DNA from: Thraustochytrium sp. TN22
Taxonomy: Eukaryota > Sar > Bigyra > Thraustochytrida > Thraustochytriidae
Assembly (NCBI GenBank): GCA_013306675.1
Contig: JABLUY010000061.1
Span: 1-64,000, forward strand
Reading direction: 5' to 3'
DNA: 64,000 nt
Positions 40,082-64,000 of the stretch are shown here, in pieces. The notes under the pieces were generated by a model. That model was not told where the DNA came from and did not search any database. It saw only the letters and a program-made list of their open reading frames with translations. A program made the translations under genes and the position numbers. Each line of letters begins with the position of its first letter. The first letter of the stretch is position 1.

Positions 40082-40113
<32 letters not shown>

Positions 40114-40419
40114 GCGCAGGCGCAGGCGCGCGGCGCGGGCCCGCGGCGCGGCTGCTGCTGGCGGGCTCCCCCCCCTCGCTCCGGCCGGCCGAGCCGCGGT
40201 CGGTCCCGTCACGGCCAAGCAGGCAAGCCTGAGCTGAGGCAGGCAAGCTAGTAGCCTGGGCACCGTAGCGGTCACCTAGCCGGCGAGAGAGCGAAAAGAG
40301 CAGCAGACTCCGAGCAGAGCAGAGCAGAAGCAGGGCGCGAGGAAAAGCAAACGCACGAGCAAGAGAAGAGGAAAAGGTGGCTCGAGCATCGGCAGGCGCT
40401 GCCGGCGGCGGCGGCGAGC
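39222..40419. other. Divergent promoter region (orphan / PI4K gamma)
   Basis: About 1.2 kb with no supported gene. It contains (GGC)n at about 40086-40112 and short CTAG-type motifs near 39614 and 40248. Long antisense frames here are compositional. Confidence 0.55.
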
Positions 40420-41916: not shown

Positions 41917-41947
<31 letters not shown>

Positions 41948-43134: not shown

Positions 43135-43334
43135 ACACTCACAGTCACCTTCATCACACCGAGCACACGCGCGCTGTGAGAGCGCGCCGCACACCCATCA
43201 GACCCCTGGTGTCGACGGCGGGCGGCCGCTTAATCGTGCGTGCGCACAGAGAACACATTGTATCTACTACTACTACCAAGCCTTATCTAAAAGAAAAAGC
43301 ACATGATGACCACATTGCCATCACTCACCGTTGG

Positions 43335-44228: not shown

Positions 44229-44347
44229 CTTGCGCTTGGCGCAGAGCACGCTTGGCTCAGATCGTGCTTTACCAGGTCAGTCGCGGCCCGATGAAAAGAT
44301 CCGTTCCCAAAGTCACCCCGTTGATCGTGACTGTGAGTCACGAGGTG

Positions 44348-44595
44348 GGAGCATGCCATGCAAAGCAAGCAGCCTTGAATGCAGCGACGGGCTTGCCTCG
44401 CCAAGAAACATGTAGCAGGTGTGAGATTTTTGCATATTGCAAATTTCGCCCAGCCTGGGCCTACAGCCCCGGTCCGCGGGGTCCACAGCCTACGTCATGC
44501 GCAAGGCAGACGTAGGCAGTACCTTGAAGGACTCTCGCTTGCACGCTTGCTCGCTGGTCCACTTGCTCGCTTGCCCGCACTTGTTCTTCGCCCGC
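44348..44595. repeat. Tandem 248-bp duplication, copy 1
   Basis: A 248-bp unit directly followed by a second copy that differs at about six bases and one indel. Each unit contains a perfect 8-bp-stem hairpin (44489-44516 here, CCTACGTC with GACGTAGG) preceded by CCCCG/CGGGG and GCCCA/TGGGC short stems. The unit lies upstream of the EF-hand gene and downstream of the 7TM gene. No conserved protein is encoded. Confidence 0.93.
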
Positions 44596-44842
44596 GGAGC
44601 ATGCCATGCAAAGCAAGCAGCCTTGAATGCAGCGACGGGCTTGCCTCGCCAAGAATCATGTAGTAGGTGTGAGATTTTTGCATCTTGCAAATTTCGCCCA
44701 GCCTGGGCCTACAGCCCCGGTCCGCGGGGTCCACAGCCTACGTCATGCGCAAGGCAGACGTAGGCAGTACCTTGAAGGACTCTCGCTTGCACGCTTGCTC
44801 GCTTGTCCACTTGCTCGCTTGCCCGCACTCGTTCTCGCCCGC
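44596..44842. repeat. Tandem 248-bp duplication, copy 2
   Basis: Second copy, about 97 percent identical by eye to copy 1. The three stems are preserved. The remaining sequence of the 692-bp gap (44229-44347 and 44843-44920) holds no other recognised feature. Confidence 0.93.
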
Positions 44843-44920
44843 CTTTTGCGCTTTCTCTCACAACTTTCTCGCTCTCTTGCTCATACTTTCCAATCCCACT
44901 GGTAGGTGAGCTCATTCATG

Positions 44921-46408
44921 TCAGAACATCTTGCCACCCTTGACAGGACGGCCACCAAAGGCACCCGGGAGCATACCGGTGGAGGCCACCTCGGAGACCT
45001 TGGAGTACCAGCTGGACTGGGAGAGGAATTGCTGAGACATGAGGGTTAGCGCGGCGGACTGAATGATGAGCACGCCGCCCGTGATGATGCGGTGGCGCAG
45101 GTAGTGCGCAAAGAGCGAGGCGATGAGGACGAGGACCGGGAAGACGAAGAACCAGGTGGCGCCGAAGACCATCAGCGTGCGCAGAAAGCCCTGGAGCTGC
45201 ATCTGGCCCTGGACCTCAGGGGCGCGCATGGTGCCAAGGATGCTGGTGGTGAAGGCGATGCCAAGGATGATGCGCTGCAGGAGAAGGAACTTGCCGGCGA
45301 GGCCATCGTGGTCGTGAAACTTGAGGAAGTTGTCGTCCTGCACCTTGTTGATGATCTGCAATATGGTGGAGACGAAGACGATGATGATGAGCACGAAGAG
45401 AGTCGGTGTCTCGTCGTCCAGCTGCGGCTGGTTGAGCAGCTGCTTCACCCAGCTGTTCCCCTTGCCCGGCGCGCGCCGCGAAAAGTCCACGAGCGTCCAA
45501 CCGTTGCCCAGGCAGAGCAGCAAGAAGGACATGATGAGCTGCGAGAGCGCCTCAAAGGACTCCGAGAAAAGGTCGAAGACGAAGACGCCCTTGCCGTTGT
45601 ACGAGTACGAGAAGAGGTGCAAAATTTCCAAGACCATGGAGAGGATCTGGAAGATGTACGCAAATGCCAGGCCCTTGATGACAGCGTGCGAGCCACCCAT
45701 AAAGACCCCGTGCCCCGTCTTCTTCTGGTACGCCGTCGAGCTCCACACAAAGAAGGCCACCATGGTCGCCGTCATGATCCAGTAGAGCGTCGGCAGCCCA
45801 CGCTCATCCGCTGGAAGGTGGTCCTCACCCGGGTTGTACAGCGTGAACTCGTACGTGAAGAGGTTGCGCTTTAGCCTCCGACGGCGGCGACTCGAGCTGG
45901 CCTGATGCTCCGGGTCCTCCACGTACTCCTCCGACGAATCGCCATTCTCGAAGCCGCGGCAGTCCGCAATGACAAAGTACCAGCCGTACGTGCGCACCTC
46001 GTGCTTGATGCTCCACTCAAACTGCCACGAGACCTTGTTCGAGTCGGGCACTGGCACAGGGTCCGTACCGCGCGCAGACCCGATGCCGTGCGCGCCCGAC
46101 GGCTTTCCGATCGGGATGCGCGTGTGCGCATGCTTCACCTTTTCGCAGTCCGCCTCATTGTGGAATTTGTCGTGCCAGTTTGTATCCATGAACAGATACA
46201 CGGACCCACGCGGCTCGCCCGTGTACGTGACGTTCCCGATGACCTTGCTCGTGCCGGGCCGGAAGCTAAACTTGGTCACCTCCGTGATCTTGTGAGACCC
46301 AAAGTAGCCCTTGCCCTCGACCACCTTGCCACCGGCCTGCGTCGCCAGCGCCGCGGCTGCCGCCAGCGCCAGCGCCCACCGCAGCGCAGTCCCGCTCAAG
46401 AGCACCAT
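44921..46408 (-). CDS. GPR180/TMEM145-like seven-transmembrane protein
   Basis: 495 residues from the ATG at 46408. Residues 1-24 form a signal peptide. A lumenal or extracellular domain of about 190 residues follows (GKGYFGSHKITEVTKFSFRP start; WYFVIADCRGFENG later), with features seen in the GPR180/TMEM145 N-terminal domain. Then seven hydrophobic segments: LYWIMTATMVAFFVW, AVIKGLAFAYIFQILSMVL, QLIMSFLLLCLGNGWTLVDF, LFVLIIIVFVSTILQII, LLLQRIILGIAFTTSIL, LMVFGATWFFVFPVLVLI and GGVLIIQSAALTLM. LGNGWTL near TM3 is shared with this family. These proteins are orphan receptors or secretory-pathway proteins of uncertain ligand. A polybasic RRRRRLKR stretch precedes TM1 by about 30 residues. Confidence 0.82.
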   Translation of the reverse strand: MVLLSGTALRWALALAAAAALATQAGGKVVEGKGYFGSHKITEVTKFSFRPGTSKVIGNVTYTGEPRGSVYLFMDTNWHDKFHNEADCEKVKHAHTRIPIGKPSGAHGIGSARGTDPVPVPDSNKVSWQFEWSIKHEVRTYGWYFVIADCRGFENGDSSEEYVEDPEHQASSSRRRRRLKRNLFTYEFTLYNPGEDHLPADERGLPTLYWIMTATMVAFFVWSSTAYQKKTGHGVFMGGSHAVIKGLAFAYIFQILSMVLEILHLFSYSYNGKGVFVFDLFSESFEALSQLIMSFLLLCLGNGWTLVDFSRRAPGKGNSWVKQLLNQPQLDDETPTLFVLIIIVFVSTILQIINKVQDDNFLKFHDHDGLAGKFLLLQRIILGIAFTTSILGTMRAPEVQGQMQLQGFLRTLMVFGATWFFVFPVLVLIASLFAHYLRHRIITGGVLIIQSAALTLMSQQFLSQSSWYSKVSEVASTGMLPGAFGGRPVKGGKMF

Positions 46409-46963
46409 GGTGGCGAGCGAGCTCCGCCGACCCGCGCCAGACCACGCCTCTCCCGATCGCCGCACCGCACCGCACCGCGCACGCCAAGCGAGCCGGCCAC
46501 CGCCGTCGGAGGCGCCGCTGCCGCTCGCGTTGCTGCGCGCCGCGCCGCGCCGCGCCGCGCCGCCCGCCGCCGCGCGCCGCGTCGCTCGCTCTGCGCCGCC
46601 GCCGCTGCCGCTGCAGTTGCGGCTTTGACTTCCGCCGTGCCACGCAGGCGCTTGGGCAAGAAGAAGGTGACGTCAACTGCCGGGCTCGAATCGCTGTCGC
46701 TGCGCCTCACTCGCCAGGCGCCAGCTCGAGCTCTCTCTCCATCTCACTGTCAATCTCGATCTGCAAAATTCCTCCGGGTCGTCATGAAGTTAGTCTATGA
46801 GAGAGCTAACCCGTTTCTCGAGGTGGTCTCGCTCGCTGCCACTGCAGGCAGGTTGCAAATCGCGCCGATGCGTCATCAAGGCTGGCTGCTCATGGAAAAA
46901 GGTTCTTGGCGGTCACGAATGGCCATCAAGATTCTTCAGGTAAAAGGTTCTTGACGGTCACAG
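46409..46963. other. Intergenic region
   Basis: 555 bp. It contains (CCGCG)n near 46535-46565 and two imperfect copies of AAAGGTTCTTGRCGGTCAC at about 46900-46918 and 46944-46962, the second next to the stop codon of the FluG-like gene. Confidence 0.6.
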
Positions 46964-48238
46964 TCAATAGCGCTCGAGGAGGACATCCACTTGGTGGTCT
47001 AGGTCCATTTGCTCGAAAAACTCGTGCTCAAATTTGCGAAGGGCCGCAATGGTCCCGGTCAAGTCAGACCCGAGACGCTGGACGAGAGCTGCGTCCGCGA
47101 GAAGGGCGTCCGCAGCCTCGACCGTGGACCGCGGGAGACGGGCCCCATCGGCCTCAGAAGGCGAGCGCTGGCATGGTGGTTGCAGCACTCGCTTCTGCCC
47201 GAGGCCATCCAGGCCGGCGTAGAGGATGCCGGCCACGGCCACGTAGGGGTTGGCGGTGGCATCAAAAGTCTTCATCTCAAAGTTAGAGGCAGGGGCGTGG
47301 CGTGACGAGATGAGGCGCAGCGGCGCCTCCCGGTTCTGGTGTCCCCAGACCTGAAAGGCACCGGCCCAACAATTCGGCTCGATGCGCCGAAAGGAGTTTG
47401 GCGAGGACACGACGAGCGCCAACAGCGCGGGGAGGTGCTCCAGAACGCCTGCAATGAAGGCAGCTCCCTCGCCTGTCAGGCCGGGCCGGTCCTCTTCATC
47501 AAAAGGCGCGTCTGCCAAGGCGTTTGAGCCGTCGCTGAGGTTGGCCAGACTGACGTGGCAGTGCAGCCCGTTGCCCGCGGCGTCATGCTTCGCCTTGGGC
47601 AGGAAGCTCGCAATTAGGCCGCGACGATGAGCGACAGCTGCCACAGCCTCGCGCGCCATGGTGAGCGTGTCGACGGCCTCGAGCGCCGGCCCGTGAAGCA
47701 GGGCGAGCTCGAACTGGCCGGGCGCCGACTCCGCGTGGAACTGCGTCACCTGCGCGCCGACGGCTTCTAGCGCGCTCACCATGTCGAGGAGCACGTCCGC
47801 GCGCTCCGAGACTGCGCTGGAGGTCGAGTAAATGTGCCTGTCCACGGGCTTGCGCGTCGTGGCGTCCAACAAGACGAACTCGAGCTCGAAGCCGACCTGC
47901 ACTGTCAGCCCCGCCTCCGTCTCCAGTGTGCGCACTGCGCGCCGCAGGACTTCGCGGCCGCATACTGGTGCCGGACTGCCGTCCTGGCAGCGCACATCAA
48001 CCAGCCGCGTCGTCATGGGCCCGCCGTCCACCACCCTGGCGGACCCCGCGTCGATCTGCAGGACGAACTCCCCCGATGCCGGCAGCGGCGACCCGGGGAC
48101 GACCACGTCGACGCATCCCGCCGCCGCGAAGCACGCTGTGCCTACGGCGCCCTCGGCTGCCGTCTCGGGCAGGCACCTTGCGCGCCGGACGCCCGCAAGG
48201 TCCGTCCATACGACCTTTTGCCATGCATGCCGCGCCAT
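46964..48238 (-). CDS. FluG-type glutamine synthetase-like enzyme
   Basis: 424 residues from the ATG at 48238. The N-terminus (VVWTDLAGVRRARCLP) is the GS beta-grasp opening seen in FluG and related proteins. The catalytic domain has GFELEFVLL (first metal-binding Glu), QFHAESAPGQFELALLHGP (second Glu site, nearly identical to fungal FluG), then LEAVDTLTMAREAV, KAKHDAAGNGLHCHVSL (NGxGxHxH loop with the ammonium/ATP-site His) and RIEPNCWAGAFQVWGHQNRE, the glutamate-binding Arg region. The metal-ligand residues appear intact, so a gamma-glutamyl ligase reaction is plausible. FluG and lengsin relatives often do not make glutamine; gamma-glutamyl amide or polyamine conjugation are options. Cytosolic, no signal peptide. 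Confidence 0.87.
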   Translation of the reverse strand: MARHAWQKVVWTDLAGVRRARCLPETAAEGAVGTACFAAAGCVDVVVPGSPLPASGEFVLQIDAGSARVVDGGPMTTRLVDVRCQDGSPAPVCGREVLRRAVRTLETEAGLTVQVGFELEFVLLDATTRKPVDRHIYSTSSAVSERADVLLDMVSALEAVGAQVTQFHAESAPGQFELALLHGPALEAVDTLTMAREAVAAVAHRRGLIASFLPKAKHDAAGNGLHCHVSLANLSDGSNALADAPFDEEDRPGLTGEGAAFIAGVLEHLPALLALVVSSPNSFRRIEPNCWAGAFQVWGHQNREAPLRLISSRHAPASNFEMKTFDATANPYVAVAGILYAGLDGLGQKRVLQPPCQRSPSEADGARLPRSTVEAADALLADAALVQRLGSDLTGTIAALRKFEHEFFEQMDLDHQVDVLLERY

Positions 48239-50836: not shown

Positions 50837-51037
50837 GGCTCAATGACATGACTTCAGGTGTTCGGCCGTCTTGAGCAGCGCGGAGGTGGTGACGACGTCG
50901 ACCTGCAAAGCGGCCTTGGCTGCTGCTGCGCTGCCGGCGCGCGGAGCGCGGAGCGCGGCACACGCGCGGAGCAGGACGCACGCGGGGACATCGGGCAGCG
51001 AGTGCAGTCGCGCGCCGCCTTGGCGTGGGTGTACAAG
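50398..51037. other. Divergent promoter region upstream of the first cyclase
   Basis: 640 bp, including a (GA)n repeat at 50804-50832 and a duplicated GGCGCATGGCGCCGCGT block near 50657-50695. The cyclase frame is open back to 50858 without an ATG, so part of this is transcribed leader or an alternative N-terminus. Confidence 0.55.
50804..50832. repeat. (GA)n microsatellite
   Basis: About 14 GA units some 200 bp before the first cyclase start codon; comparable GA runs precede AP-2 sigma and follow the protease gene. Confidence 0.93.
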
Positions 51038-54000
51038 ATGGACGACAGCGCAGGCGTCACAGGCGGCCAAGGTGCTGCCGACAGTCTGGCGAAAGGTGTA
51101 CAGGCAGCCACGCTGCGCCGGAGCCGAACAACGAGCGGCGATCTGAAGCCGTCGCCGCCATCGACCCCGAAGCCAAGGCGATTATCGCTACCTAGGGTGT
51201 CCAAACTTATGAACCCAATAATAAAGCGCAGCTTCGAGCAGCTGCCGGTGCAGATGCGATCAGAAATTGGCAGTAGAATGAGCCTGACCAAGAGCCGCGC
51301 TGATCCTGATACCATCGAGGGGAACGTTCTTTCAAATGAGCCGAGCATTGCATCAGCAGCCTACGAGACGGACGGCACGGATGCGTTGCTTGCTTCCAGG
51401 AGCTCTGAAGTTCCCGACTCCAAGGAGACCATCGCCGCCCGCCAGATCCAGCGAGGATTTCGGACAACCCAGTCGAAGTTCCTTGCATCGCAGTGGAGAC
51501 GGGACCTGATGGTTGCTCGCGACTCTCTAGCCGCGCATGCCAGGTTTGGCACTGGTCCGAGGGCGCAACAGCACATGGAGACGGAGGTCACGCTCAAGGT
51601 GCTAACGCCCCAGTATTTGCGGTGGGTGCTCGAGGTTGAGGGCCCCGGAGCGCTTACGCCGGGAACTTGCCGAACAGTGAGGGGTTCGGTGGCCTTCGTC
51701 GACATGAAGGGGTTCACCAAACTGGCGCAGCAGCTAGCGGCAGCTCACAAGTTCGGCAACCACGGCGGCTCGCTTATCTTCAGGACGGCTGAGGTCGACG
51801 CCAACAACAGCGTCGATGTCTCCTCCGAGATCACCAACGACGTGCTGGCGCGCTACTGGAACCTGGTCATCATGTACGCGGACAAATTTAATGGTGATGT
51901 GGTCAAGTTCCTCGGCGATGCGGTTCAAATCGTTTTTCCAGACCAGCCAGTCTTCTCGCACATCCGCGGACGCGACGCAGTCCCGGGCATCTGCCAGGAC
52001 CGCGCTCTCATGTTCGCAATCGAGCTCATGCACGGGCTCGAGGTCTTCGGGCTCGAGTCGCAGTCCGGAGCCTCGTCGCAGAAAATGAGCCTCAAAATTG
52101 GCCTCGCCTACGGCGATATGACCTTCTCCGTCGTCGGAGGCGTCTTATCGCGCTGCGAATTCGTCCTCTCCGGCCCGGCGCCGGCCAGAGCCGCTGACCT
52201 CAGCGGTTGTGCCAATGAGAACGAGACCATTGCAGACAGCAGCTTAAGAATCATCAAGCCGCTCATGAAGGCAGGCAAGGACTTCGCGCGTCTCCACGTC
52301 GGCTCGGGGGAGCACGACACGGAGGCCATCTACTCGAGGCTGACGGAGACGGAGGACTACTTCCACGTTAGCCTCAACGTCAATCCTTACATTTCGGAGA
52401 GCGCGGCCGTGGCATTTCCGGGGAAGTTGGACTCCCGCTTCAGCGCGACGCAAGAACGCTCAAGCCAGCTGCGGGCGTCGACCGGCATGGGTTTTAGCTC
52501 TGCAAACCTGAAAGTGCCGATGGACTCGCCTCGCCTGTCGGCAAAGACAGGTGCCTACGTTTTGCGGACACAGTCATCGACGGGCAAGGTTGGGAAGACG
52601 TTATCACGCGGCAACGATAGCAACGTCAGCGACGGGTGGGAGGCCCGGGTATCCGATGTTCAGATCCCCGTACTGAGTCGGTTCGTTCCAATTTGTGTGC
52701 TTTCGCAGATCGCAGCGGGTTGCCACAACGCTCAACTCGGCCAACGCTACTGCTCCGTACTCTTCGTGAACGTGCTGAGCTACGACCCCAGCGCCTCCGA
52801 CGAGGAGCGCACGCGGCTCATGCAGCTGTCAACAGCGCTTGCGCAGACTGCAATCTTCCATCAGCGCGGCGACCTGCGCCAGGTCGCCGTCGACGACAAG
52901 GGTCTCGTCATCATCGCCATGTTTGGGCTGTCGACGCCGCAACCCGAGCTTGCGGCCTTCAACGCGCTGATGCAGATCAAGAAGGAGTATCGTAAAGTCG
53001 ACATTCGCGCCGGGCTCGGGCTCACCTCGGGAACCTGCCACTTCGGCCCGACCGGCGCGACGTCACGCGCGGAGTACGCAGTCGTTGGCAACATTGTCAA
53101 CCTCTCGGCCCGCCTCATGGGTCGGGCCTCGGCGACGCGGGACGGCCAAATTGGTCTTGTGGACGAGGCGACTCTCCTGGCGCTGCCGACCTTCTGCAGC
53201 CACTCCTTCGTGGAGGCCTCGGTTCAAGTGAAGGGCTTCTCGGACGCCATCGAAGTCTTCATACCGCTCGCTAACGATGAGTCGCTTGAGCAGCTCGAGC
53301 AAAAGGCTAGGTTACCCTGGCTTTCTGATTCTCCGCGCCTCCGTGTCGTCACGGTCAGTAGCGTTTCGAGGCAAAGTGACGCTCATGCTCGCAAGGTAGC
53401 AGCGAAGAGGTCCAATGACGACTTCGTCGCGGACATCTTTCGCCTCACGCTCAATGTGCAGAGTCCAGACGCAGTGCGGGAGGTCCTCAAGCATGTCACG
53501 GTCATGGGCATGGTGGAGGCACGGATCGATGTCGGCATTCTGTACGCTCTCCTCCCGAGCGAGTCAGTCCGTGAGATGCTGGATGACTGCCTCGAAATCA
53601 TCCGCGACGAGCTTGGCCTCCTTCGCGGCACTCCAAATGCGGGCCAGGATGACGCCGACGAAGAGGAGGAGGGCTTCGTTGAGGTGATCCATGTGCAGAA
53701 CAAGATTGCGCCTCTGTACCGCACTCTGATGCGCTCGTTTCGACATTCAGCGCATGCAAGGCTTGCCGGCCTCTACCAGGACCAGCTCTACCATGGTCGG
53801 CTCAAGCGACAGGCGCGAGACAACATTCACGTGGTCATCGGTTCTCACTTCGCCATGGCGGGCGTCGAATACTACATGGATGCTGCCGAGTACATCAATC
53901 AGGGTATCGAGCGAATTGGCCCCATCAACCCGGCCTCTGCCGAGAGCCTTGCCACGAGGAGCTGCATGCTCGTCGAGCTTTGGCAGCACGTCCAAGCGTG

Positions 54001-54640
54001 CAAGGCTGAGACAGTAAGGGCCAACGCGCTTCTCTTTGTCGCCGAGCTGAAGCGTCGGGAGCGAAACTTACTCACCAGCTACCGCACCTACGTCCGTTGT
54101 CTCCGCTCATATGCTGCCCTTTCCCCGCTTCTCATGCCCGCGTGCTCCGAGCTTGGCCTCGACATAGCCACCGACTGTGGCAATCTTGCGAACGAGTGCG
54201 GGTGCGGCGCTCTCAAGCGCGGCTTGCGAGCTTACTTCTTCCTGCACCTGATCGAGAGTGACGGCGCCATGTCTTTTTCCTTTCGATGCCTTCGCGTCAT
54301 CGTTGCCAAGGACGGCTTCTCGGCGCACGTGCAGCAGTCCGAGTGTGTGAATCTTCGTGGCATGATCGAGACGCCGGCACATGCCGTGAACTGTACTCTG
54401 CGCACCCTGACTCGCCAGGAGCTGCCCGCCAGCTACCAACTCGCGCATCCGGAGCGCTCCATGGAGAACTTTTACTGCATCACCTCCTACAACTCAACCA
54501 CATCCAAGCATATCCTCGCCTGCCTGGCGCAAATCGGTCGACTGGACGCGGCAGCCTCCAAGTCGGCTGCACAGTTGCGCGCCTCGGAAGAGCCGAGCAT
54601 CACGGAGAACCCCGTATCAAAGATGTGCACCATCTCGTAG
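51038..54640 (+). CDS. Soluble-type (ADCY10-like) adenylyl cyclase, copy 1, with CaaX terminus
   Basis: 1,200 residues from the first ATG. An IQ-like segment (AARQIQRGFRTTQSK) lies near residue 135. The C1 cyclase domain starts VAFVDMKGFT with D222, then VVKFLGDAVQIVF with K290 and D294, and KIGLAYGDM. The C2 domain starts VLFVNVLSYDP, includes VAVDDKGLVIIAMFGL and GLTSGTCHFGPTG, and ends AVVGNIVNLSARLM with N688 and R692. Metal aspartates in C1 and the Asn/Arg pair in C2 reproduce the single shared active site of animal soluble cyclase; cAMP synthesis is expected. The Arg that binds bicarbonate in mammalian sAC is not evident after LSGPAPA. The last 440 residues form an unrecognised module (VTVMGMVEARID; IGSHFAMAGVEYYM). 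The protein ends CTIS, a CaaX box. Confidence 0.88.
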   Translation: MDDSAGVTGGQGAADSLAKGVQAATLRRSRTTSGDLKPSPPSTPKPRRLSLPRVSKLMNPIIKRSFEQLPVQMRSEIGSRMSLTKSRADPDTIEGNVLSNEPSIASAAYETDGTDALLASRSSEVPDSKETIAARQIQRGFRTTQSKFLASQWRRDLMVARDSLAAHARFGTGPRAQQHMETEVTLKVLTPQYLRWVLEVEGPGALTPGTCRTVRGSVAFVDMKGFTKLAQQLAAAHKFGNHGGSLIFRTAEVDANNSVDVSSEITNDVLARYWNLVIMYADKFNGDVVKFLGDAVQIVFPDQPVFSHIRGRDAVPGICQDRALMFAIELMHGLEVFGLESQSGASSQKMSLKIGLAYGDMTFSVVGGVLSRCEFVLSGPAPARAADLSGCANENETIADSSLRIIKPLMKAGKDFARLHVGSGEHDTEAIYSRLTETEDYFHVSLNVNPYISESAAVAFPGKLDSRFSATQERSSQLRASTGMGFSSANLKVPMDSPRLSAKTGAYVLRTQSSTGKVGKTLSRGNDSNVSDGWEARVSDVQIPVLSRFVPICVLSQIAAGCHNAQLGQRYCSVLFVNVLSYDPSASDEERTRLMQLSTALAQTAIFHQRGDLRQVAVDDKGLVIIAMFGLSTPQPELAAFNALMQIKKEYRKVDIRAGLGLTSGTCHFGPTGATSRAEYAVVGNIVNLSARLMGRASATRDGQIGLVDEATLLALPTFCSHSFVEASVQVKGFSDAIEVFIPLANDESLEQLEQKARLPWLSDSPRLRVVTVSSVSRQSDAHARKVAAKRSNDDFVADIFRLTLNVQSPDAVREVLKHVTVMGMVEARIDVGILYALLPSESVREMLDDCLEIIRDELGLLRGTPNAGQDDADEEEEGFVEVIHVQNKIAPLYRTLMRSFRHSAHARLAGLYQDQLYHGRLKRQARDNIHVVIGSHFAMAGVEYYMDAAEYINQGIERIGPINPASAESLATRSCMLVELWQHVQACKAETVRANALLFVAELKRRERNLLTSYRTYVRCLRSYAALSPLLMPACSELGLDIATDCGNLANECGCGALKRGLRAYFFLHLIESDGAMSFSFRCLRVIVAKDGFSAHVQQSECVNLRGMIETPAHAVNCTLRTLTRQELPASYQLAHPERSMENFYCITSYNSTTSKHILACLAQIGRLDAAASKSAAQLRASEEPSITENPVSKMCTIS

Positions 54641-54972
54641 CTCATGGAGGGCATCGAGCTTGGTGACCTAGCGAAGGTTCTTCCGTGAAACCCAGTTTGC
54701 ATTCACGATTTTTATTTTTACCAGATGGTAGAAGTCGACGGAGAGAAAGCTCTGCGCGCGTGCACAGCAAACACACAGATCACTTTTTATTTTAAAGCTG
54801 TCCCTGATCCCGCTGGGCCGTGTCGTTGGTGTTCCTCGGCGACAGAAGTTGAAGACCGTTTGACGCGGCTGCCACTCTCGCATGTGGTACGCTAATGTAC
54901 CGGTAACGGTACGGTACGTGGTCGGTACCACCGTGGTGCTGGTGGCGGCAACACCAGGGTACACACAACTTT

Positions 54973-55001
54973 GGACGGATTGCTCCGGCGCGGAGCAATC
55001 C
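54973..55001. promoter_or_regulatory. Perfect 12-bp-stem hairpin
   Basis: ACGGATTGCTCC pairs fully with GGAGCAATCCGT across a five-base loop. It lies about 330 bp after the stop codon of cyclase copy 1. It could be an RNA structure in the 3' UTR or a DNA-binding site. Confidence 0.55.
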
Positions 55002-55913
55002 GTTCAGCAGACGTGGCGTCGCCACGGCGTTGTGGTAGCGGCTGCTCTCTCTCTCGCTGTGCGCTTCCCTCCAACTGTGCAGCTGGAGAGAATTCAGCCG
55101 GACAGCAACCCTACTGGGGAGGACCCCAACCACTGGCAGTAAAGTCTATCAATCTGCCAGGTTCAAGCGAGGCCAACCCGACCGACTACTTGCCACAGCG
55201 CTCCGCGCCGCACCGGCTAATTCGCCAGAGAGGCTGCGGCGAGCGCGTCGCGCAGAGGGAGAAAAGGAACTTGACAGGGCTCAACTTGACGTGTCTGGTT
55301 CAGTTTTTTTTTCATTTTTGCCGGACTCTTCGCAAGGGTGTGTGCCCGCCCTGCAGTGCCACGTATCGCGCGGCGGCGTGCCTCGCCTGAGCGTCCTGAA
55401 CTAGACGACAATTTTTACGAGGGGCCAAGGGCGAGAGACGAGGCGTGCAGAGCGCGTGCGCCGACCGAAGCGTGAGGTGCGACGTCGCGAGGCCACGCGC
55501 GAGCGTATCGCGAAGGGCTGGGCGCAAGCAAGTGCGAGCGCGCCGCCCGGGCTGATCAAGTATCGCTACGCTCGTGCAGTTCGCTCGTTCGCTCGTCCGC
55601 GTTGCGTTGCCGCCTAGGGAGAAGTGCGTTCAGTCGGCGAGGAGCGAGACGCGGAGCGCAAGCAACCAGTGTACACAGGAGGGAGGGAAAGGGGAGAGCC
55701 ACGTCGTGTGCAGGCAGACGCAGCGAGCGTGGAAGGATTGGCAGGCAGGAAGCGATTGCGCAAGGGATTCGATCGAGCTCTCCTTGGCGTCTCCCCGTGC
55801 CCGTGCTGGAAAAAGCTTGCTTGGTCGTCGTACTTATCACTAGACTGCCCTCCTGCCGGTGTGGTGCAATTGGGCCTGCATTCTCCTTTTCCTCCATCCC
55901 CATCTCGTTCTCG

Positions 55914-56018
55914 CCTTCGTCTTCGTCTTCGTCTTCATCTTCGTCTTCGTCTTCGTCTTCGACTTCGACTTCGACTTCGACTTCGACTTCGTCGCGCGGC
56001 GCGCGGCGCGCGGCGCGC
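55914..56018. repeat. (CTTCGT)/(CTTCGA)n and GCGCGCG array
   Basis: About 80 bp of hexanucleotide units drifting from CTTCGT to CTTCGA, then about 25 bp of CGCGCGG. Antisense translation gives an artificial Glu/Asp/Val run that should not be taken as protein. Confidence 0.92.
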
Positions 56019-56100
56019 AAATTGCCGGTATTCAAGATACGCACCTGGCTTCGAAAGAAGGCTGTGACACCTTTTCAAGTTGCTGCCTGGCCCGCACGTG

Positions 56101-59100
56101 ATGAATGATGCCCGCGACGACGGGATGGAGGCCAAAACCACATCGGACGTAGGAACGAGCGAAGCCTCCGGCCTTGATCAGTGGCTTGGCGAGGCCAAAT
56201 TCAAGCTTTCGGAGGCGCCGAGTCCAGAACCAGATCGCAAGACCCGCCGAGTCAGCTTCAAGCTCGGCGCTCGGCCATCAATAACCCTGATGGCTGACGC
56301 GGAGCGGGCCCGAGCAGCCAGGATCGTGCAACGCTGGCGTCAGGAACATCAGCGCAGGAAGCACGTGGCAATTCGCAAGGCCAAACTGCGCCGTTCGCGT
56401 TTCATTTTGGAAGGTCGTTTGATCTCAGGTTTGGGGTCATCGTCGAGCAACTTGGGCGGGCAAATGCTGAACCTGCAGCAAAGCCGGGAGCAGCTCGTAG
56501 AAGTGAACGACATGCTGCGGGCGCTGACGCCACATTATATCCAGTGGCTCATTCGGGTCAAGGGCACCAGGGCGCTTGCGCCAGAGACCTACCACGAGAT
56601 CACAGGCGTGGCCGTCTTCGTTGACATGAAGGGCTTCACAAACCTGGCTCAGTATCTGGCCGAAGGAGGCAACGCCAAAGCGCCCGGGGCCACAGCGATC
56701 TTGGACGACGATGAGCATCAAACGCGGGACCTGTCATCCGAGCTCACCAACGCCGTGCTGGTGCAGTACTGGTCGCTCGTCCTCATGTACGTGCAAAAGT
56801 TCCAGGGTGACGTCCTCAAGTTCCTCGGCGACGCTGTCCAGATCATCTTCCCGCTGGAGCCGCTCTTCGATCACTGTGAGACGCAGGAGGAAGCCGCGGC
56901 CAAGTGCCAGCAGCGGGGGCTCGTCTTCGCCCTTGAGCTGCTTCGTGCTCTGGAATTCTTTCAGGTCAGTTCCCTGGACGTCGGCACGCACCGAATGAAC
57001 CTCAAGATCGGCCTGGCGTACGGCGATATGACCGTGCGTTTCCTCGGAGGTCTGTCTCAGCGCTGCGAGCTCGTGCTGTCTGGGCCGGCGTCGGAGTTGG
57101 CAGCAGATCTGAGCGGTCGTGCGGTGCCGGACGAGGCGGTGGTGCACGAGAGTATTGCGATACTGCGCTCCTTCAACGGCCTCATCGCCAAGGACGCCAG
57201 CTTCGGCCGTCTACAGATGTCACGGAAGCGGACCGAGGTGGAGGAACTGTACACCTTCCTGAAGCAGTCCGACGACTACTTCGACGGTAGCCTGTGCGCC
57301 AACCCATATGAGGGGGAGCAGGCCGATGTCGACGACTCGATCCAAGGCGCTGGCAGGTCATCCACGGACGCCCTCTTCGCCGGGGTTCAGGCGCTAAATC
57401 AGTACCAGAAGCGCGCCTCGTCGCGCACACGTCGTTCACAGCGTCGCGGCTCGAACTCGTTGGGGTCCCTTGGCTCCGTGCCCTCCTCTGGCATGGGCTA
57501 CTCAACTCGGATTCAAGAGTTCGCAGAGAGCTTTGCAGATCCGCGTCTAAAGTCCGGCACAGCGAGCGCTACGCTTCCGCTCAACGTGCTCGGGCGATTC
57601 GTGCCACAGTGCGCGCTCATTCAGATCGCCTCCGGCTGCCACACGGCTCACCTCGGCGAGTGCTACTGCTCTGTGCTCTTTGTGGAGATTTGCAACTACG
57701 ATCCAGGAGCGCCTCCTCAGGAGCAGACAGTCTTCATGCAGGTGGCCGTCTCGCTCGCACAAAAAGCCATTTTCGAGGAGCTTGGCTACCTACGTCAGGT
57801 CGCCGTGGATGACAAAGGCCTGGTCATCATTGGAATGTTTGGCATCAACTCGTCGCTATCTGAGGAATCCGCCTTCAACGCGGCCCTTAAGCTTCGGGCC
57901 CGGTACGACGCGGAAGGTATTCGTGCCGGCATCGGGCTCACCTCGGGCAATTGCCACTTTGGCCCCACCGGTTCCAGCATTCGCATGGAGTATGCAGTCG
58001 TGGGCAACACGGTGAACCTTTCGGCGCGGCTTATGGCACGGGCGTCAAAGGCGGTGAAGCTCCGCGACAACAGCTCTTCGATGATCATTATTGACCAGGG
58101 CACCTTTATGGGGCTGCCCGAGCGCGGCCAGCTGGAATTTCTCACCTCTGAGCTCAGCGTCAAGGGATTTAGCTCGGCAGTGCAAGTCTTCTCCCCGCTC
58201 GCTGCCAATGAGACCGCGGCGGACTTTTCTGAGCCGGCCATGATGGAGGCGCTGGGCTTCGAGCGCGCACCGCAGTGTGTCTCCATTTCACAGGCCACGC
58301 AGCGCTCGGTCGTGAGCTTCCGTGAGCATCGCAAGCGCACCGGTTTCGTGGCAGACATCCAGCGACTCACGCAGGGCCTCGAGAGGCCCGAGCCGGTCCA
58401 GGAGGTAATCAAGCACATCGCGGTGATGGGCTTTGTGAGTGCGCGCGTCGACCTCGTCATCTTAGGCGCTGTGTTACCCGGGATTGGGACCACTCAGGAC
58501 CTGACCTACGCGCTGCAAATTATCGAGAAGGACCTGCAGCTCATTCGAAGGGTCGGACACCACATGTACATCATCAACGACCTGGAGGGCCAGATCAAGC
58601 CGCTGTACTACACCCTCATGCTCTCTTTCCGCATGATGCTGCACATTGAGCTGGCCGAGCTGTACGAGAACCAGCTCGTGCACGGGGATATGAACGAAAT
58701 CCCGAGCGATGGCCTTCACATCACAATCGGCTCTCATCTCTCGCTCGCCGGCGTGGACTGCAGCCTCCGCGCGGCGGAATTCCTCAACAGGGGAATCGTC
58801 CAGGTGGCTCGTCAAGATCTCGAGTACGCCAGCGAGCTGGCACGCAAATCCCGCCGCTTGGTCGTGACGTGGCAAAAGAAGCAGCAGAGTCGTGCGGAGG
58901 AGGCCGCAGCGACGGCACTCTTCTATCTCGGGGGCTGCGAGCTCAAGCTCTCGAACTACCGCCGAAGCTTTGGATCATACATTGGTGCGCTACGCTGCTA
59001 CGCGGGGCTCTCGCCATTGCTCTCGTCAGCCTGTGATTCTCCGTCCACCTGCTTTCTCCTGAACGATAACATGCCGCCGTGCGACTGCCTGAGGTTTCGA

Positions 59101-59607
59101 GACAAGCTGCACGCTTACCTGAGCATTCACCATCCCGAGGACACCAGCTCTTCTTCCTACTTCTTGCGCACCATGGAAATCAGTTCAAGCAAGGGTGACA
59201 CCTTTCACCTACTTCCCATTCAGAGCGCGAGCGTGGACTCTGTGGGCGCGCCCGCAAGCGATCTTGGGAGCTGCACTCTGGAGAAGCTTTCGCGACAAGA
59301 GTATTTCGAGCAGTACGAGCTGGTCCAGCCCCGAGAGACCATCACGCAATTCTACCGGCTCTGCATCTTTGATGCTAACACGGCCAAGCTTATCTTGCAC
59401 ACCCTGGCGCAGCTCGCCAAGACGTCCGCCAGCGCGCACATCAAGTCAGGCGAGGTGTCATCAGCGACCGGCGACCATACAACAGTGTCGAAGCTGGACT
59501 CGTTGACGAGGCATCCCGAGGAGCTCGAGACCGCCCACGCCGCTCGAGACGCGTCCAAACAAAGTGCGCATGTGCACGTACAGTCCAAGCTCTGTACCCT
59601 TCAGTGA
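56101..59607 (+). CDS. Soluble-type (ADCY10-like) adenylyl cyclase, copy 2, with CaaX terminus
   Basis: 1,168 residues from the ATG at 56101. An IQ-like basic segment (ARIVQRWRQEHQRRKH) lies at about 73-88. C1 begins VAVFVDMKGFT with D175; VLKFLGDAVQIIF carries K240 and D244; KIGLAYGDMTV follows. C2 begins VLFVEICNYDP, includes VAVDDKGLVIIGMFG and GLTSGNCHFGPTG, and ends AVVGNTVNLSARLM with N639 and R643. As in copy 1 the catalytic set looks complete. The bicarbonate-site Arg is again not evident (LSGPASELAADLSG). The C-terminal module matches copy 1 (IAVMGFVSARVDL; PLYYTLMLSFR; IGSHLSLAGVDCSL; AAEFLNRGI). The protein ends KLCTLQ, a CaaX box. A same-strand tandem duplicate. Confidence 0.88.
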   Translation: MNDARDDGMEAKTTSDVGTSEASGLDQWLGEAKFKLSEAPSPEPDRKTRRVSFKLGARPSITLMADAERARAARIVQRWRQEHQRRKHVAIRKAKLRRSRFILEGRLISGLGSSSSNLGGQMLNLQQSREQLVEVNDMLRALTPHYIQWLIRVKGTRALAPETYHEITGVAVFVDMKGFTNLAQYLAEGGNAKAPGATAILDDDEHQTRDLSSELTNAVLVQYWSLVLMYVQKFQGDVLKFLGDAVQIIFPLEPLFDHCETQEEAAAKCQQRGLVFALELLRALEFFQVSSLDVGTHRMNLKIGLAYGDMTVRFLGGLSQRCELVLSGPASELAADLSGRAVPDEAVVHESIAILRSFNGLIAKDASFGRLQMSRKRTEVEELYTFLKQSDDYFDGSLCANPYEGEQADVDDSIQGAGRSSTDALFAGVQALNQYQKRASSRTRRSQRRGSNSLGSLGSVPSSGMGYSTRIQEFAESFADPRLKSGTASATLPLNVLGRFVPQCALIQIASGCHTAHLGECYCSVLFVEICNYDPGAPPQEQTVFMQVAVSLAQKAIFEELGYLRQVAVDDKGLVIIGMFGINSSLSEESAFNAALKLRARYDAEGIRAGIGLTSGNCHFGPTGSSIRMEYAVVGNTVNLSARLMARASKAVKLRDNSSSMIIIDQGTFMGLPERGQLEFLTSELSVKGFSSAVQVFSPLAANETAADFSEPAMMEALGFERAPQCVSISQATQRSVVSFREHRKRTGFVADIQRLTQGLERPEPVQEVIKHIAVMGFVSARVDLVILGAVLPGIGTTQDLTYALQIIEKDLQLIRRVGHHMYIINDLEGQIKPLYYTLMLSFRMMLHIELAELYENQLVHGDMNEIPSDGLHITIGSHLSLAGVDCSLRAAEFLNRGIVQVARQDLEYASELARKSRRLVVTWQKKQQSRAEEAAATALFYLGGCELKLSNYRRSFGSYIGALRCYAGLSPLLSSACDSPSTCFLLNDNMPPCDCLRFRDKLHAYLSIHHPEDTSSSSYFLRTMEISSSKGDTFHLLPIQSASVDSVGAPASDLGSCTLEKLSRQEYFEQYELVQPRETITQFYRLCIFDANTAKLILHTLAQLAKTSASAHIKSGEVSSATGDHTTVSKLDSLTRHPEELETAHAARDASKQSAHVHVQSKLCTLQ

Positions 59608-60202
59608 TGAATCAAACATGGAAAAATGTATTGCGACAGCAATCTTTCAAAGTTGCATTGCTGCGAAAGCACCAACACGACGCCTGCTCTCTTGCAGGTT
59701 CATGGCGGCCAAGTCCACACCACACACTGACGATGACGGCCATCGGCAGTCTCCGTTGCGACTCAAGGCCACGCTGACCTGGCCAACGGCTTGTTGGCGA
59801 GGCGGCCGGGTCGTCGTCCCGCGTCGTCCCGCGAGACTTTGTGTGCCCCTCCCTGTACGCGCCTCGCTCACTCTCGCACACTGTGCCACTGTGCCACTGT
59901 GAGCCTCTTCAAGGCCCGAAAACGGCTAGCTAAGATGCTCGCTTCGCACCTCACATGTCGAAGCTTCCAGAGGATGCATCATTTATCGCAACGCACGGCA
60001 AACAGCAAAGCTCAGCATACCGCCACGCCTCGCCACGTCACGCCCCGCCTCGCCTCGCCTCGCCTCACCTCCGTGCGCGCGCGGTGCGCGCGGTGGGCCG
60101 CGCGGCCGCGCGGCCTCTGCTGCGCGTTCAGGAGGAGACCAAGTGCCAGCCTCCAGGAGAAGAAAGGTTTCTTTGTCGGCCCGAGGCTTCGCATTGAGCA
60201 AA
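59608..60202. other. Intergenic region between cyclase copies 2 and 3
   Basis: 595 bp. It has a GTCCCGC duplication near 59815-59830, a (TGTGCCAC) repeat near 59882-59900 and a (CGCCT)n run (60042-60070). No gene supported. Confidence 0.6.
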
Positions 60203-63200
60203 ATGCGACGCGCAGGCATCGACAGCAGCAGCTGGTTTTCGTATGGGGACGCGGACTGGCTCGGCTTTGCGGTGCAGACGCCAGCGCTCAGGCGGGCGCG
60301 GCCTTGGTCGAACAGGGTCGACTTTGGTGCAAATCGAGGGACAATGCCAATGTCCAGCTCGCGAGCAACCCACCGCACCCGATCGCGACAGAAGCTGCGT
60401 GGACAGGATTCGGGCGGCTCCGGTGAGCTAGTGGTACCTGGTAAGAAGGCAATGGCCTGCCGCCGTATCCAGCGCTGGTGGGCGAACCAATTGCGCCTTC
60501 GCGTCTGGACGACTCGCCGCGAACTGATCGCCAAGACCCAGGCGGCCCTCCAAGAGCTGCTTGCGGACGAGTCTTCACAACGCATGACGGATGTCCTCGT
60601 GCAGATCCAGCGTTTGACTCCAAGTTGCATTCAGGCCGAAGCAAAGATCGCAAGCGAGGATTCTCTCAAGGCGGGCTCGAACTTCATAGCCCATGGGGCG
60701 GCCATGGCTATCTCGCTCAAGGGACTGACGGCTCTCCTGTACAACATCTTCGTGCAGCACAGCGCGGTCACTCGCACGAGAAGCACCGTCGATGTTGGTG
60801 ACCGCATATCCCGGAATCTGGCGCTCCTTGTGAACATGGCGGAGCCTGACAAGGCCACGCGCGTACTGCAGAGTTGCTGGGGACAAATTATGGCATGCAT
60901 GAAAAGGTGCGGTGGCGACTTGCTCCAGGTGGTCGGCGAGGACCTCCTCATCCTTATTCAACCTCAAGGCACGGCAACCATCAAGGCGACCTACCAGGGT
61001 CGATCGCAGTCCATCCTTGACGCAGAACGCGCGGAATGCGAAGGGCGTGCCATGCGCCTCATCAGCGACCTCTGTAGCATGCTGCAAAGTACGGAGGTAG
61101 CCGGCAGCATCAAGCTTGGGCTGCACATTAAAATTAGGGCGGGCTTAGCCTTTGGCGACTGCCAGGCTTTGATCGTCGGCGGTCGGTACACGCGCAACTT
61201 CTTGATCCCTGTCGGCGAGGTGTGGCGCCGGGCCCAAGAGCATCTAGAAGTCGCGTTGGACACGGAGCTTGTGCTCGACGCGGAATTCGCGATCGCGAGG
61301 CAGCATGCGCTACCGTCCGCCGCTTACGCGCGCCTCAGTCTCGCCCCTGAGGAGCTTCGTGCTATCAGGACCTCAATGGAGCGCCTTGCCACGGACCAGT
61401 CCCATCGGAGCTTTCGCACGTCTTCTCCAACTTCCTCGCAAAAGTCGCAGAACCTGCACGCTCGTCGCTTGTCACGAGAGATGGGCGCGAAGAATAGTCT
61501 CCCAGTGCTCCGGGAGCAAGGAGTGCTCGACAACGGGAGCTCGTTCCGAAGCCGCGACGGACTGGAAGCCGTGGAGAGACGGCGCCACAGCGACCACGGC
61601 ATCTCCGACAACGTGGAGAGACGGCGCCACAGCGACCACGGCATCTCCGACAAGTACAGCTCAGGAGCAACTCGCGGGAGCTTCGCAGCTCGGAACTTCC
61701 AGCACCCGTCGCACCACGCAGACTTGCTCTTGGCCGAAGACAGTCTGCCGAGCAGAGATCGGGGCTCCTTTCTTGGCTTCAGCTCGATGAAGACTTTCGC
61801 AAGGCGTCTCAACCACATGTCAAAACTATGCCACCTCTTGCCTCCTCGAACATTGGCGAGCATCGTACGTGGCTCGTTCGCGATGATGCCAGAGAGCGGC
61901 ACGGCGACCGTCGTGTACGTTGTGGTACACCTAGCGCCCAGCAGTGACTTCGACCCACGAGAGGCGCCTGGACGCGGCCCAGGCTCAAGGGCCGACCCTC
62001 CCAGCGCTGGTGGCGATGTCCGCCAAACCAGCAGCAACGGCAGCAGCGACAGCGACGCCAGCGCAAGCGAGGTCAATTCCAAGAATGAAATGACGCAGCT
62101 GGCGCAAGTGCTCCAGAAGATCGTCCTGCTAGTGCAGGCACCCATTTGCGAGAATGGTGGCGAGCTCGTGAACGCTTGCGTGTGGGGCGAAAACTTCCAC
62201 CTCGCGATCGCCATTGGCGCGGACGGGTATGAGAATGAGCGCATCGCCTGCGCAGCGTCTCGGGAGCTGGAAGGCTTGCTCTCAGGAGCTGGCTTTCGAG
62301 CTGTTACTGGCATTGCAACGGGCTGGTGCAAGATCGGCTTGGTGGGCAACGAGCTGCGGAGTGAGTACGCGCTCACAGGGCCGGTTTTCGGCCTCTCCAG
62401 CGCGCTTGCTTCAAGAGCGCTGGGAGCCGCAAAGGAGCAAGGTTGCTGGCCTTTGACAATAACAGACAACACCACCTTTCTCGGGCTGCCGCTGGACTAC
62501 ACCTGCAGCTTCGTTGCTGGCGACCTTTTCGTCAGGCAGTATGAGGAGACTATTCAAGTCTTCCTCCCACTTTGGGGTTCAAGGCTGACATTGGAGGCGC
62601 TGGAGGAGGACGGAGCTCTCCTGGGTTTGTCCGTCACTGGCGACCCGAGACAAGTCAGGGTTGCTGACGCACTTGATGATGTCAAGGCGCACAGAATGGT
62701 GAAACGCCGGCATCGCGATCAGCTCAGCGACGTGATGAGGCTCGGACGCAAACTCGGCAACGAGCGAGCGGAGGCCATCAAGCAGTGCCTGCAACTCGTC
62801 TCCGTCATGGCGACGGCTCACGTGGAGGTGGACACACAGGCGCTGACGGAAGCGACACGCGCGTTCGCCATCTTGGTAGAAGCCAACGAGGCGCTAAATG
62901 TGCTCTCCAGGGACCTGCAGATGCTTCGAAATGTCGGCGCCAACCAGTACGTGGTGAACAGTGTAGAGGAGTGTATGCATCCCATCTACATGAACCTTTT
63001 GCCAAGCTTCCGTATTGCGGCGCACCAGATCTTTGCCGGGCTCTACTCACGGCGCCTCCTCGCTGGCAATTGTGTCTCATGGACTCCGGAGACCGCGCAT
63101 GCGGTCATTGGGACACACCTTTCCTTCTCGGGGAGCTCCCATCATCTGGATGCTGCGAACCACTTCAATCAAGCTCTGCCAGCCCTCACGCGAAGCAATC

Positions 63201-64000
63201 CGGCGGTGGCAAAGGCGCTTGCGCGCAGGGCCCACATGCTCGCCCGCTCCTGGGCCGCCTCGCAGAAAAATAAGGCGGAGCGCGTGGCGGCGGAGGCCGC
63301 CATGATAAGCGCTCGTCTCGCGCGCATGTCGCGCCGACTCAACGTCGCCGCTTGCGCCTCCGTAGCCTGCTTGCGCAGCTTCGAGGCGCTCGCACCATTG
63401 CTGGAGCCAATCTGCGGTCTTCATGCCGAGGCCTGCACGGTGTGCCATGCTGCGGAGAACCCGACTGGCATAAGCTGCTCATGTTTCACACTCCGTAAGG
63501 ACCTTCGTGCCAGGGTCATCGTATACCAGTCCGACGATGCCTACGCGAGGTCACAACTGCGCTGCCTTGAGCTCGCAAATGACAACGGCACCGTCGTCTT
63601 GGCGCCGCGCAAACTTGCTATTGACCAGAAGCGCCTCGAGGAGTTGCTCGTACAAGCGCTCCATGGGGAAGATGAGGTTCTGCTCCTGTCACTGCCCGAG
63701 GATGACGTAGCAAGAGTTGTCTCCGAAGACGCGACGCCTAAGAACCTTCCTGTGGAAACCTTCGTGTTGGTGCTGCGTCAATGGCGGGCAGCCAAGCTCG
63801 TGCTGACTGCGTTGACACAGCTCGCCGAATTGTCTCTGCGCGATCGGGTTCAGCAGCTTCGTCCACTCGATCCGGAGGCGTTGCGGAGGGAAGCAAATGA
63901 CAAGGTCGAGGAGGCACGGAGCCAAAGCCCGAGTGGTCTTGAGCAGCGGCACCTCCATGTGGACCAACATCACCAACGGCATCCTCCGGGCCAGCCTCCC
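60203..64000 (+). CDS. Degenerate soluble-type cyclase homologue, copy 3 (pseudo-cyclase, runs off window)
   Basis: Open from the ATG at 60203 to the window end (1,266 codons, incomplete). The N-terminus aligns with copy 2 (DWLG; NRVDFGANRG against RRVSFKLGAR), then an IQ-like segment (CRRIQRWWANQLRLR). The C1 position of FVDMKGFT reads LLYNIFVQHS and the KFLGDA site reads QVVGEDLLIL, so both metal aspartates are lost or shifted to Glu. KIRAGLAFGDC still marks the fold. In C2, GIATGWCKIGLVGNELRSEY is recognisable, but the VNLSAR site reads VFGLSSA, losing the Asn/Arg pair. The C-terminal module is kept (AVIGTHLSFSGSSHHLDAAN). A Ser/Arg-rich insert of about 150 residues separates C1 and C2. 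A regulatory, non-catalytic role is likely. Alternative starts: 60344, 60350, 60452. Confidence 0.83.
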   Translation, partial: MRRAGIDSSSWFSYGDADWLGFAVQTPALRRARPWSNRVDFGANRGTMPMSSSRATHRTRSRQKLRGQDSGGSGELVVPGKKAMACRRIQRWWANQLRLRVWTTRRELIAKTQAALQELLADESSQRMTDVLVQIQRLTPSCIQAEAKIASEDSLKAGSNFIAHGAAMAISLKGLTALLYNIFVQHSAVTRTRSTVDVGDRISRNLALLVNMAEPDKATRVLQSCWGQIMACMKRCGGDLLQVVGEDLLILIQPQGTATIKATYQGRSQSILDAERAECEGRAMRLISDLCSMLQSTEVAGSIKLGLHIKIRAGLAFGDCQALIVGGRYTRNFLIPVGEVWRRAQEHLEVALDTELVLDAEFAIARQHALPSAAYARLSLAPEELRAIRTSMERLATDQSHRSFRTSSPTSSQKSQNLHARRLSREMGAKNSLPVLREQGVLDNGSSFRSRDGLEAVERRRHSDHGISDNVERRRHSDHGISDKYSSGATRGSFAARNFQHPSHHADLLLAEDSLPSRDRGSFLGFSSMKTFARRLNHMSKLCHLLPPRTLASIVRGSFAMMPESGTATVVYVVVHLAPSSDFDPREAPGRGPGSRADPPSAGGDVRQTSSNGSSDSDASASEVNSKNEMTQLAQVLQKIVLLVQAPICENGGELVNACVWGENFHLAIAIGADGYENERIACAASRELEGLLSGAGFRAVTGIATGWCKIGLVGNELRSEYALTGPVFGLSSALASRALGAAKEQGCWPLTITDNTTFLGLPLDYTCSFVAGDLFVRQYEETIQVFLPLWGSRLTLEALEEDGALLGLSVTGDPRQVRVADALDDVKAHRMVKRRHRDQLSDVMRLGRKLGNERAEAIKQCLQLVSVMATAHVEVDTQALTEATRAFAILVEANEALNVLSRDLQMLRNVGANQYVVNSVEECMHPIYMNLLPSFRIAAHQIFAGLYSRRLLAGNCVSWTPETAHAVIGTHLSFSGSSHHLDAANHFNQALPALTRSNPAVAKALARRAHMLARSWAASQKNKAERVAAEAAMISARLARMSRRLNVAACASVACLRSFEALAPLLEPICGLHAEACTVCHAAENPTGISCSCFTLRKDLRARVIVYQSDDAYARSQLRCLELANDNGTVVLAPRKLAIDQKRLEELLVQALHGEDEVLLLSLPEDDVARVVSEDATPKNLPVETFVLVLRQWRAAKLVLTALTQLAELSLRDRVQQLRPLDPEALRREANDKVEEARSQSPSGLEQRHLHVDQHHQRHPPGQPP
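61571..61654 (+). repeat. In-frame 42-bp tandem duplication
   Basis: Two copies of a 42-bp unit (period 42, one or two differences), encoding VERRRHSDHGISDN and VERRRHSDHGISDK in the linker of the third cyclase homologue. The unit RRRHSD resembles a basophilic kinase site (R-R-x-S like), so it may duplicate a phosphosite. Confidence 0.93.

Follow-up and report, generated by a model that had tools for sequence, protein, structure and literature searches.

Three consecutive same-strand genes resembling the soluble adenylyl cyclase (sAC) ADCY10 lie towards the end of a 64,000-nucleotide stretch of Thraustochytrium sp. TN22 DNA (assembly GCA_013306675.1, contig JABLUY010000061.1, positions 1 to 64,000 of the forward strand; hereafter, the window). 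Given this arrangement, we asked whether the triad encodes ordinary cytosolic cyclases, or whether it represents a lineage in which the enzyme has been remodelled and, in part, inactivated. We think it reasonably probable that the triad belongs to a seven-member family derived from sAC, which has no P-loop nucleoside triphosphatase (NTPase), ends in a CaaX box and comprises two probable membrane-tethered cyclases and five pseudo-cyclases.

The tandem of three homologous genes, proposed in an earlier note on this DNA, is real, being made up of three long, uninterrupted plus-strand frames with pairwise identities of 26-39%. Copy 1 occupies an open reading frame at 50858-54640 (first ATG at 51038, stop at 54640) and encodes 1200 amino acids, and copy 2 one at 56080-59607 (first ATG at 56101) encoding 1168. 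The frame of copy 3 opens at 60143 (ATG at 60203) and continues beyond 64000 to a stop at 64034-64036, giving 1277 amino acids; its last 36 bases fall outside the window, in the downstream contig sequence. From stop to next ATG, 1460 bases separate copy 1 from copy 2 and 595 bases copy 2 from copy 3. Copies 1 and 2 are identical at 402 of 1042 positions (39%), and the matches to copy 3 lie in the C-terminal halves (160/516, or 31%, for copy 1; 157/593, or 26%, for copy 2), those of the N-terminal halves being weaker.

Which type of cyclase this is can be read from searches, trees and predicted structure. In the Pfam scan, copies 1 and 2 scored 24.2 and 26.5 bits for Guanylate_cyc (cut-off 21.9), and copy 3 gave no match to that domain. 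Searching the PDB with copy 1 returned CyaB of Pseudomonas (E 6.3e-9) as well as human ADCY10 (E 1.2e-6), and with a C1-C2 profile of all three copies ADCY10 became the first match (E 8.2e-13); copy 3 alone matched no cyclase. A tree built from 40 single domains places copies 1 and 2 with sAC, their C1 domains inside the sAC-C1 clade (support 100/98) and their C2 domains inside the sAC-C2 clade (100/100), separate from six further class III domains that this genome encodes. A grouping with guanylyl or membrane adenylyl cyclases was not seen in this partial run, in which the comparison set consisted of those six own-genome domains, whose types are our own reading, none being a named guanylyl or membrane cyclase and two belonging to the two-domain C417 frame, taken as membrane-type. 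The tree included nine bacterial loci and left out the five degenerate copies described below as well as own_C3 and own_C433, two long branches that were also dropped from the family tree. Our trees drew on 24 of 80 prokaryotic loci that had been kept from 208 confirmed stretches encoding C1-C2 relatives (302 pattern matches), and the quick tree carries long-branch warnings. The predicted C1-C2 structure (mean predicted local distance difference test score, pLDDT, 52) contains two cyclase-like domains, for which human sAC tops the list of matches, tied with membrane cyclases. Taken together, the trees and pairwise identities support both the sAC-type tandem cyclase domains and the local paralogy that had been proposed. 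The occurrence of such a cyclase outside animals, pointed out in the earlier note, is not remarkable: besides the 208 prokaryotic stretches, copy 1 has matches in 12 further frames of the same genome, all with E values of 2.6e-6 or better (seven of them aligned here; C245, at E 0.0021, is excluded from the count), so that sAC-type genes are unremarkable in this genome.

The catalytic residues predicted for copies 1 and 2 were found exactly as claimed (D222, D294, N688 and R692 in copy 1; D175, D244, N639 and R643 in copy 2). Specifically, the C1 domain of copy 1 (51683..52222) holds D222 (51701-51703), K290 and D294 (51917-51919), and its C2 domain (52739..53263) holds K621, A681, N688 (53099-53101) and R692 (53111-53113); the corresponding domains of copy 2 lie at 56605..57132 and 57655..58194 (approximate limits). 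In human ADCY10 numbering, both copies retain the equivalents of D47, K95 and D99 in C1 and of K334, N412 and R416 in C2. The ADCY10-like split site therefore stands for copies 1 and 2 but not for copy 3, a predicted pseudo-cyclase, in which the metal Asp positions of the C1 domain (60692..61276, approximate limits) are S and E and the Asn/Arg positions of the C2 domain (61895..62542, approximate limits) are G and A. The same holds for four family members elsewhere in the genome, which have, like copy 3, lost the equivalents of D47, K95, K334, N412 and R416, the D99 equivalent being kept in three of these five degenerate proteins.

Copies 1 and 2 could instead be guanylyl cyclases, or have little or no activity, within a family that is regulatory as a whole. 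We give this a low probability. Both copies have Ala at the T405 and R176 equivalents and the branch leading to the family is long in the trees, as such a reading would expect; yet the metal, Asn/Arg and Lys residues are all kept, the guanylyl-type Glu/Cys base pair is absent, and between these two copies no other long region is as well conserved as the cyclase domains. As for the T405 position itself, it is Ala in copies 1-3 and Val in the remaining four members, T in all 24 bacterial rows of the alignment, and S, S, A, T, A, S and I in the seven canonical sAC rows of this genome.

Two expectations about regulation carry over poorly. K95 and R176 are the bicarbonate-site Lys and Arg of animal sAC, and the R176 equivalent is absent from all seven family members; an ADCY10-like bicarbonate response should thus not be assumed for the family. 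Since this residue is also absent from 23 of 24 bacterial and all seven own canonical rows, its absence shows no more than that the family may be regulated differently from animal sAC. Likewise, the segment described as IQ-like (51434..51517 in copy 1) proved weak when compared with the IQ consensus, [ILVF]Qxxx[RK]Gxxx[RK]: the strict form occurs in none of the seven proteins, a basic [IVL]QR stretch stands in its place, and a loose form is found within the N-terminal segment of copy 1 and the C443 member only. Because the segment fails the consensus, calmodulin control is not to be assumed either.

How far does the family extend beyond the triad? Own-genome searches with copy 1 and with copy 3 returned the identical seven short frames, three on the triad contig (C411), two in tandem on C24 and one each on C366 and C443; these searches score the best candidates only, and the family has at least seven members. 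In the family tree, the bootstrap of which is not fully settled, the seven form a single clade beside sAC (100/99), within which copies 1 and 2 are sisters (98/95) and the degenerate five make up a clade of their own (100/100), with copy 3 as its first branch and the other four grouped at 97/98. The single degenerate clade is most simply explained by one loss of catalysis that preceded the multiplication of the pseudo-cyclases. By this tree, C411 is the contig that holds the predicted active pair plus the deepest pseudo-cyclase branch. The proposal that local duplication produced a lineage-specific cluster is thereby upheld as to local paralogy, but the cluster accounts for three of seven members of a family that is dispersed in the genome. 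As to segmental duplication, none of the open reading frames of at least 120 codons in the flanks of the C24 genes (40001-47000 and 64001-72000) and of the C443 gene (38001-45000 and 55001-63000), 15 kb each, matched the window or the 30 kb that follow it (threshold E 1e-4), a comparison that covers the more distant flanks rather than the few kilobases directly beside these genes. When viral contigs were scanned for the family's C-terminal module, 30 stretches matched a pattern and none of them was confirmed.

Downstream of the cyclase domains, the family departs from the canonical sAC architecture. The P-loop motif is found in none of the seven members; in its strict form it is present in six of the seven canonical sAC frames of the same genome, and AAA_16 exceeds its cut-off in two of the three canonical frames scanned (C433 and C10). 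What follows the C2 domain is instead a predicted helical module (53453..54262 in copy 1, and, with approximate limits, 58375..59148 in copy 2 and 62771..63484 in copy 3), in which all seven members carry a Cys cluster, C-x(n)-C-x(n)-C-x-C following PLL. The family's C-terminal profile aligns weakly, in register, with the post-NTPase region of 17 bacterial sAC-type proteins (hhalign E 2.9e-4, probability 40%; 17 of 18 chosen loci, one frame being too short), and four canonical proteins of the own genome match the same bacterial set well (E 5e-22). We infer that the NTPase core was deleted and the downstream helical region retained, rather than the NTPase having been absent from the start.

The second shared feature is the extreme C terminus. 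The last four residues of every member fit C-x-[LI]-[QS] (CTIS at 54626..54637 in copy 1, CTLQ at 59593..59604 in copy 2, CALQ at 64022-64033, outside the window, in copy 3, and CSLQ, CSLQ, CLLQ and CMIQ in the others), the X of the CaaX box being in all seven one of the S, Q, M, A or C of prenylated proteins, and in six the box is preceded by S-[KR]-x. These counts come from seven paralogues of one genome, the tails of which go back to a common ancestor and do not count as seven separate events. It could be, then, that the proteins are ordinary cytosolic sAC paralogues that arose by local duplication and merely inherited CaaX-like ends that are never lipidated; the tandem copies on C411 and C24 and the common descent would fit such a history, and matches to CaaX can in general stay unmodified. 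We nevertheless consider it unlikely. The box is kept in seven of seven members even though conservation is poor over the roughly 30 residues in front of it (a mean pair identity of about 0.22) and Cys is rare over the last 100 residues (10 of 700 over the seven tails); the tail composition gives a chance CaaX ending of about 0.0005-0.001 per tail. Among 37 background open reading frames (at least 300 codons and third-position GC content, GC3, above 0.8, from 194 kb, a filter that by design excludes low-GC3 genes like those of this family) none has Cys at -4, and a CaaX box is found in none of the four canonical frames with a sequenced, though unverified, end.

The genome also encodes the machinery that would be needed: a farnesyltransferase beta subunit (E 7.6e-101 to the human subunit), two more Prenyltrans-family proteins and one frame with four PPTA (alpha-subunit) repeats. 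One of its six DnaJ_C frames ends in CQQS, and DnaJ proteins that are farnesylated elsewhere carry ends of this type. The simplest reading of the conserved CaaX box is farnesylation, which we predict for all seven members.

If five members of the family cannot catalyse, why are they still there? Copy 3 and the four other degenerate copies could be decaying pseudogenes, leaving only copies 1 and 2 of consequence, and the loss from all five of the first metal Asp, together with the Lys and the two catalytic residues of C2, and the lack of a detectable Pfam cyclase domain in copy 3, are what such decay might look like. However, all five retain stop-free frames of more than 1100 codons, the CaaX box, the N-terminal segment and the Cys cluster. 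In four pairs of degenerate members, compared over 1104-1203 codons, nonsynonymous divergence (dN) is 0.56-0.75 and synonymous divergence (dS) 1.6-2.1, giving a dN/dS of about 0.3-0.4, a rough figure with dS near saturation. Moreover, conservation is redistributed. In the active pair it is 0.54 in the cyclase domains vs 0.39 in the helical module, and among the degenerate five the ranking is reversed (0.40 vs 0.48), with module conservation higher here than in the active pair; the 95% range of the difference of differences is 0.16-0.32 (column bootstrap). The five degenerate members thus look as if they are still maintained by selection, and general decay seems to us very improbable.

We now return to the membrane-tethered family of two cyclases and five pseudo-cyclases, against which several of our observations weigh. 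The T405-equivalent Ala of copies 1 and 2 may mean altered activity or a changed ATP preference. The contrast in the NTPase region is less sharp than the motif counts suggest, as the canonical C423 frame, scanned in two pieces, has the P-loop motif and no AAA match. The relation between the C-terminal module and the bacterial post-NTPase region is a modest link, moderately supported by the profile comparison: aligned directly with four own canonical proteins, the family's C terminus gave no match (hhalign E 0.58), and the structure predicted for the helical module is poor (mean pLDDT 43.6). The canonical-end control is soft, because frame ends may not be protein ends (C433 stops just past the winged-helix region). 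To these are added the single ancestry and single genome behind the CaaX count and the near-saturated dS behind the estimate of constraint.

Were the family organized as we propose, C1 and C2 of copies 1 and 2 would pair within the chain to form one ATP site, with cAMP as the product, and farnesyltransferase would modify the terminal Cys, turning a "soluble" cyclase into a peripheral membrane enzyme without transmembrane helices. The helical module may serve as a binding surface. The five pseudo-cyclases would share anchor and module but not catalysis, acting as membrane-held regulators or scaffolds that perhaps bind the active copies, or common partners, through the helical module. It is tempting to speculate further that these proteins constitute a new class of membrane-bound class III cyclases in which NTPase control was swapped for a farnesyl anchor and in which farnesylated dead paralogues, expanded from one dead ancestor to five, co-evolved as regulatory or scaffolding partners, possibly at the flagellar membrane; we put this forward tentatively, as a possibility that falls short of being probable.

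With regard to genome context, the GC-rich assembly comprises 37.9 Mb in 453 contigs with eukaryote-type genes, and cyclic-nucleotide signalling is well represented in it, with the 12 further sAC-like frames, 118 cNMP_binding matches and 14 PDEase_I matches in 11 frames, the last two being seemingly large numbers. One frame of 2658 amino acids (C423:117591-125564) combines C1-C2, a P-loop motif, a PH domain and a phosphodiesterase (PDEase_I), and a 2247-amino-acid frame on C116 has cyclase and phosphodiesterase matches in a single phase; both resemble the cyclase-phosphodiesterase fusions reported from basal plants. Within the window, about 20 kb from the cyclases, a minus-strand frame at 26755-30729 joins Sulfate_transp, STAS and cNMP_binding in what appears to be a SulP-type anion transporter, and a GPR180/TMEM145 transmembrane-domain protein is encoded at 44924-46465 (minus strand), about 4.6 kb upstream of copy 1. 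The GC content is 0.59-0.62 across the cluster and mostly 0.63-0.72 upstream of it in the window, and GC3 is 0.68-0.75 in the seven family genes vs 0.74-0.93 in the seven canonical sAC frames. ARAGORN called a tRNA-Ala at 60291-60380 (minus strand), within the frame of copy 3 on the opposite strand, which is probably false.

Animal class III cyclases are usually divided into a transmembrane and a soluble type. An sAC lineage with a conserved lipidation box and without the NTPase would, if our reading is right, represent a third means of keeping cAMP synthesis at the membrane, and its five dead paralogues would offer a clean case for asking what a pseudo-enzyme still does, with a known module and tail in which to look. 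No native CaaX-tailed sAC or other cyclase was described in the titles and opening lines of abstracts returned by a limited literature search. The catalytic core belongs to a known type; the combination of a missing NTPase, a CaaX box in all members found and a maintained dead clade is, to our knowledge and within that search, undescribed.

Compared with ADCY10-type sACs, both animal and bacterial (C1-C2-NTPase-TPR), the family shares the tandem C1-C2 arrangement, the C1 metal Asps and the C2 Asn/Arg pair (in copies 1 and 2), the placement of its domains in the sAC clades and a C terminus that weakly matches the post-NTPase region. It differs from them in that all seven members lack the P-loop and the R176 equivalent and carry the CaaX tail, in having Ala or Val at the T405 equivalent, and in being catalytically degenerate in five of seven cases. 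From transmembrane adenylyl cyclases it is set apart by the position of the copy 1 and copy 2 domains, away from the two of the putatively membrane-type C417 frame, and by its presumed means of anchoring, a predicted C-terminal lipid rather than helices. It is with farnesylated CaaX proteins such as Ras and YDJ1-type DnaJ that the family shares a C-a-a-Q/S end in a genome that encodes a farnesyltransferase.

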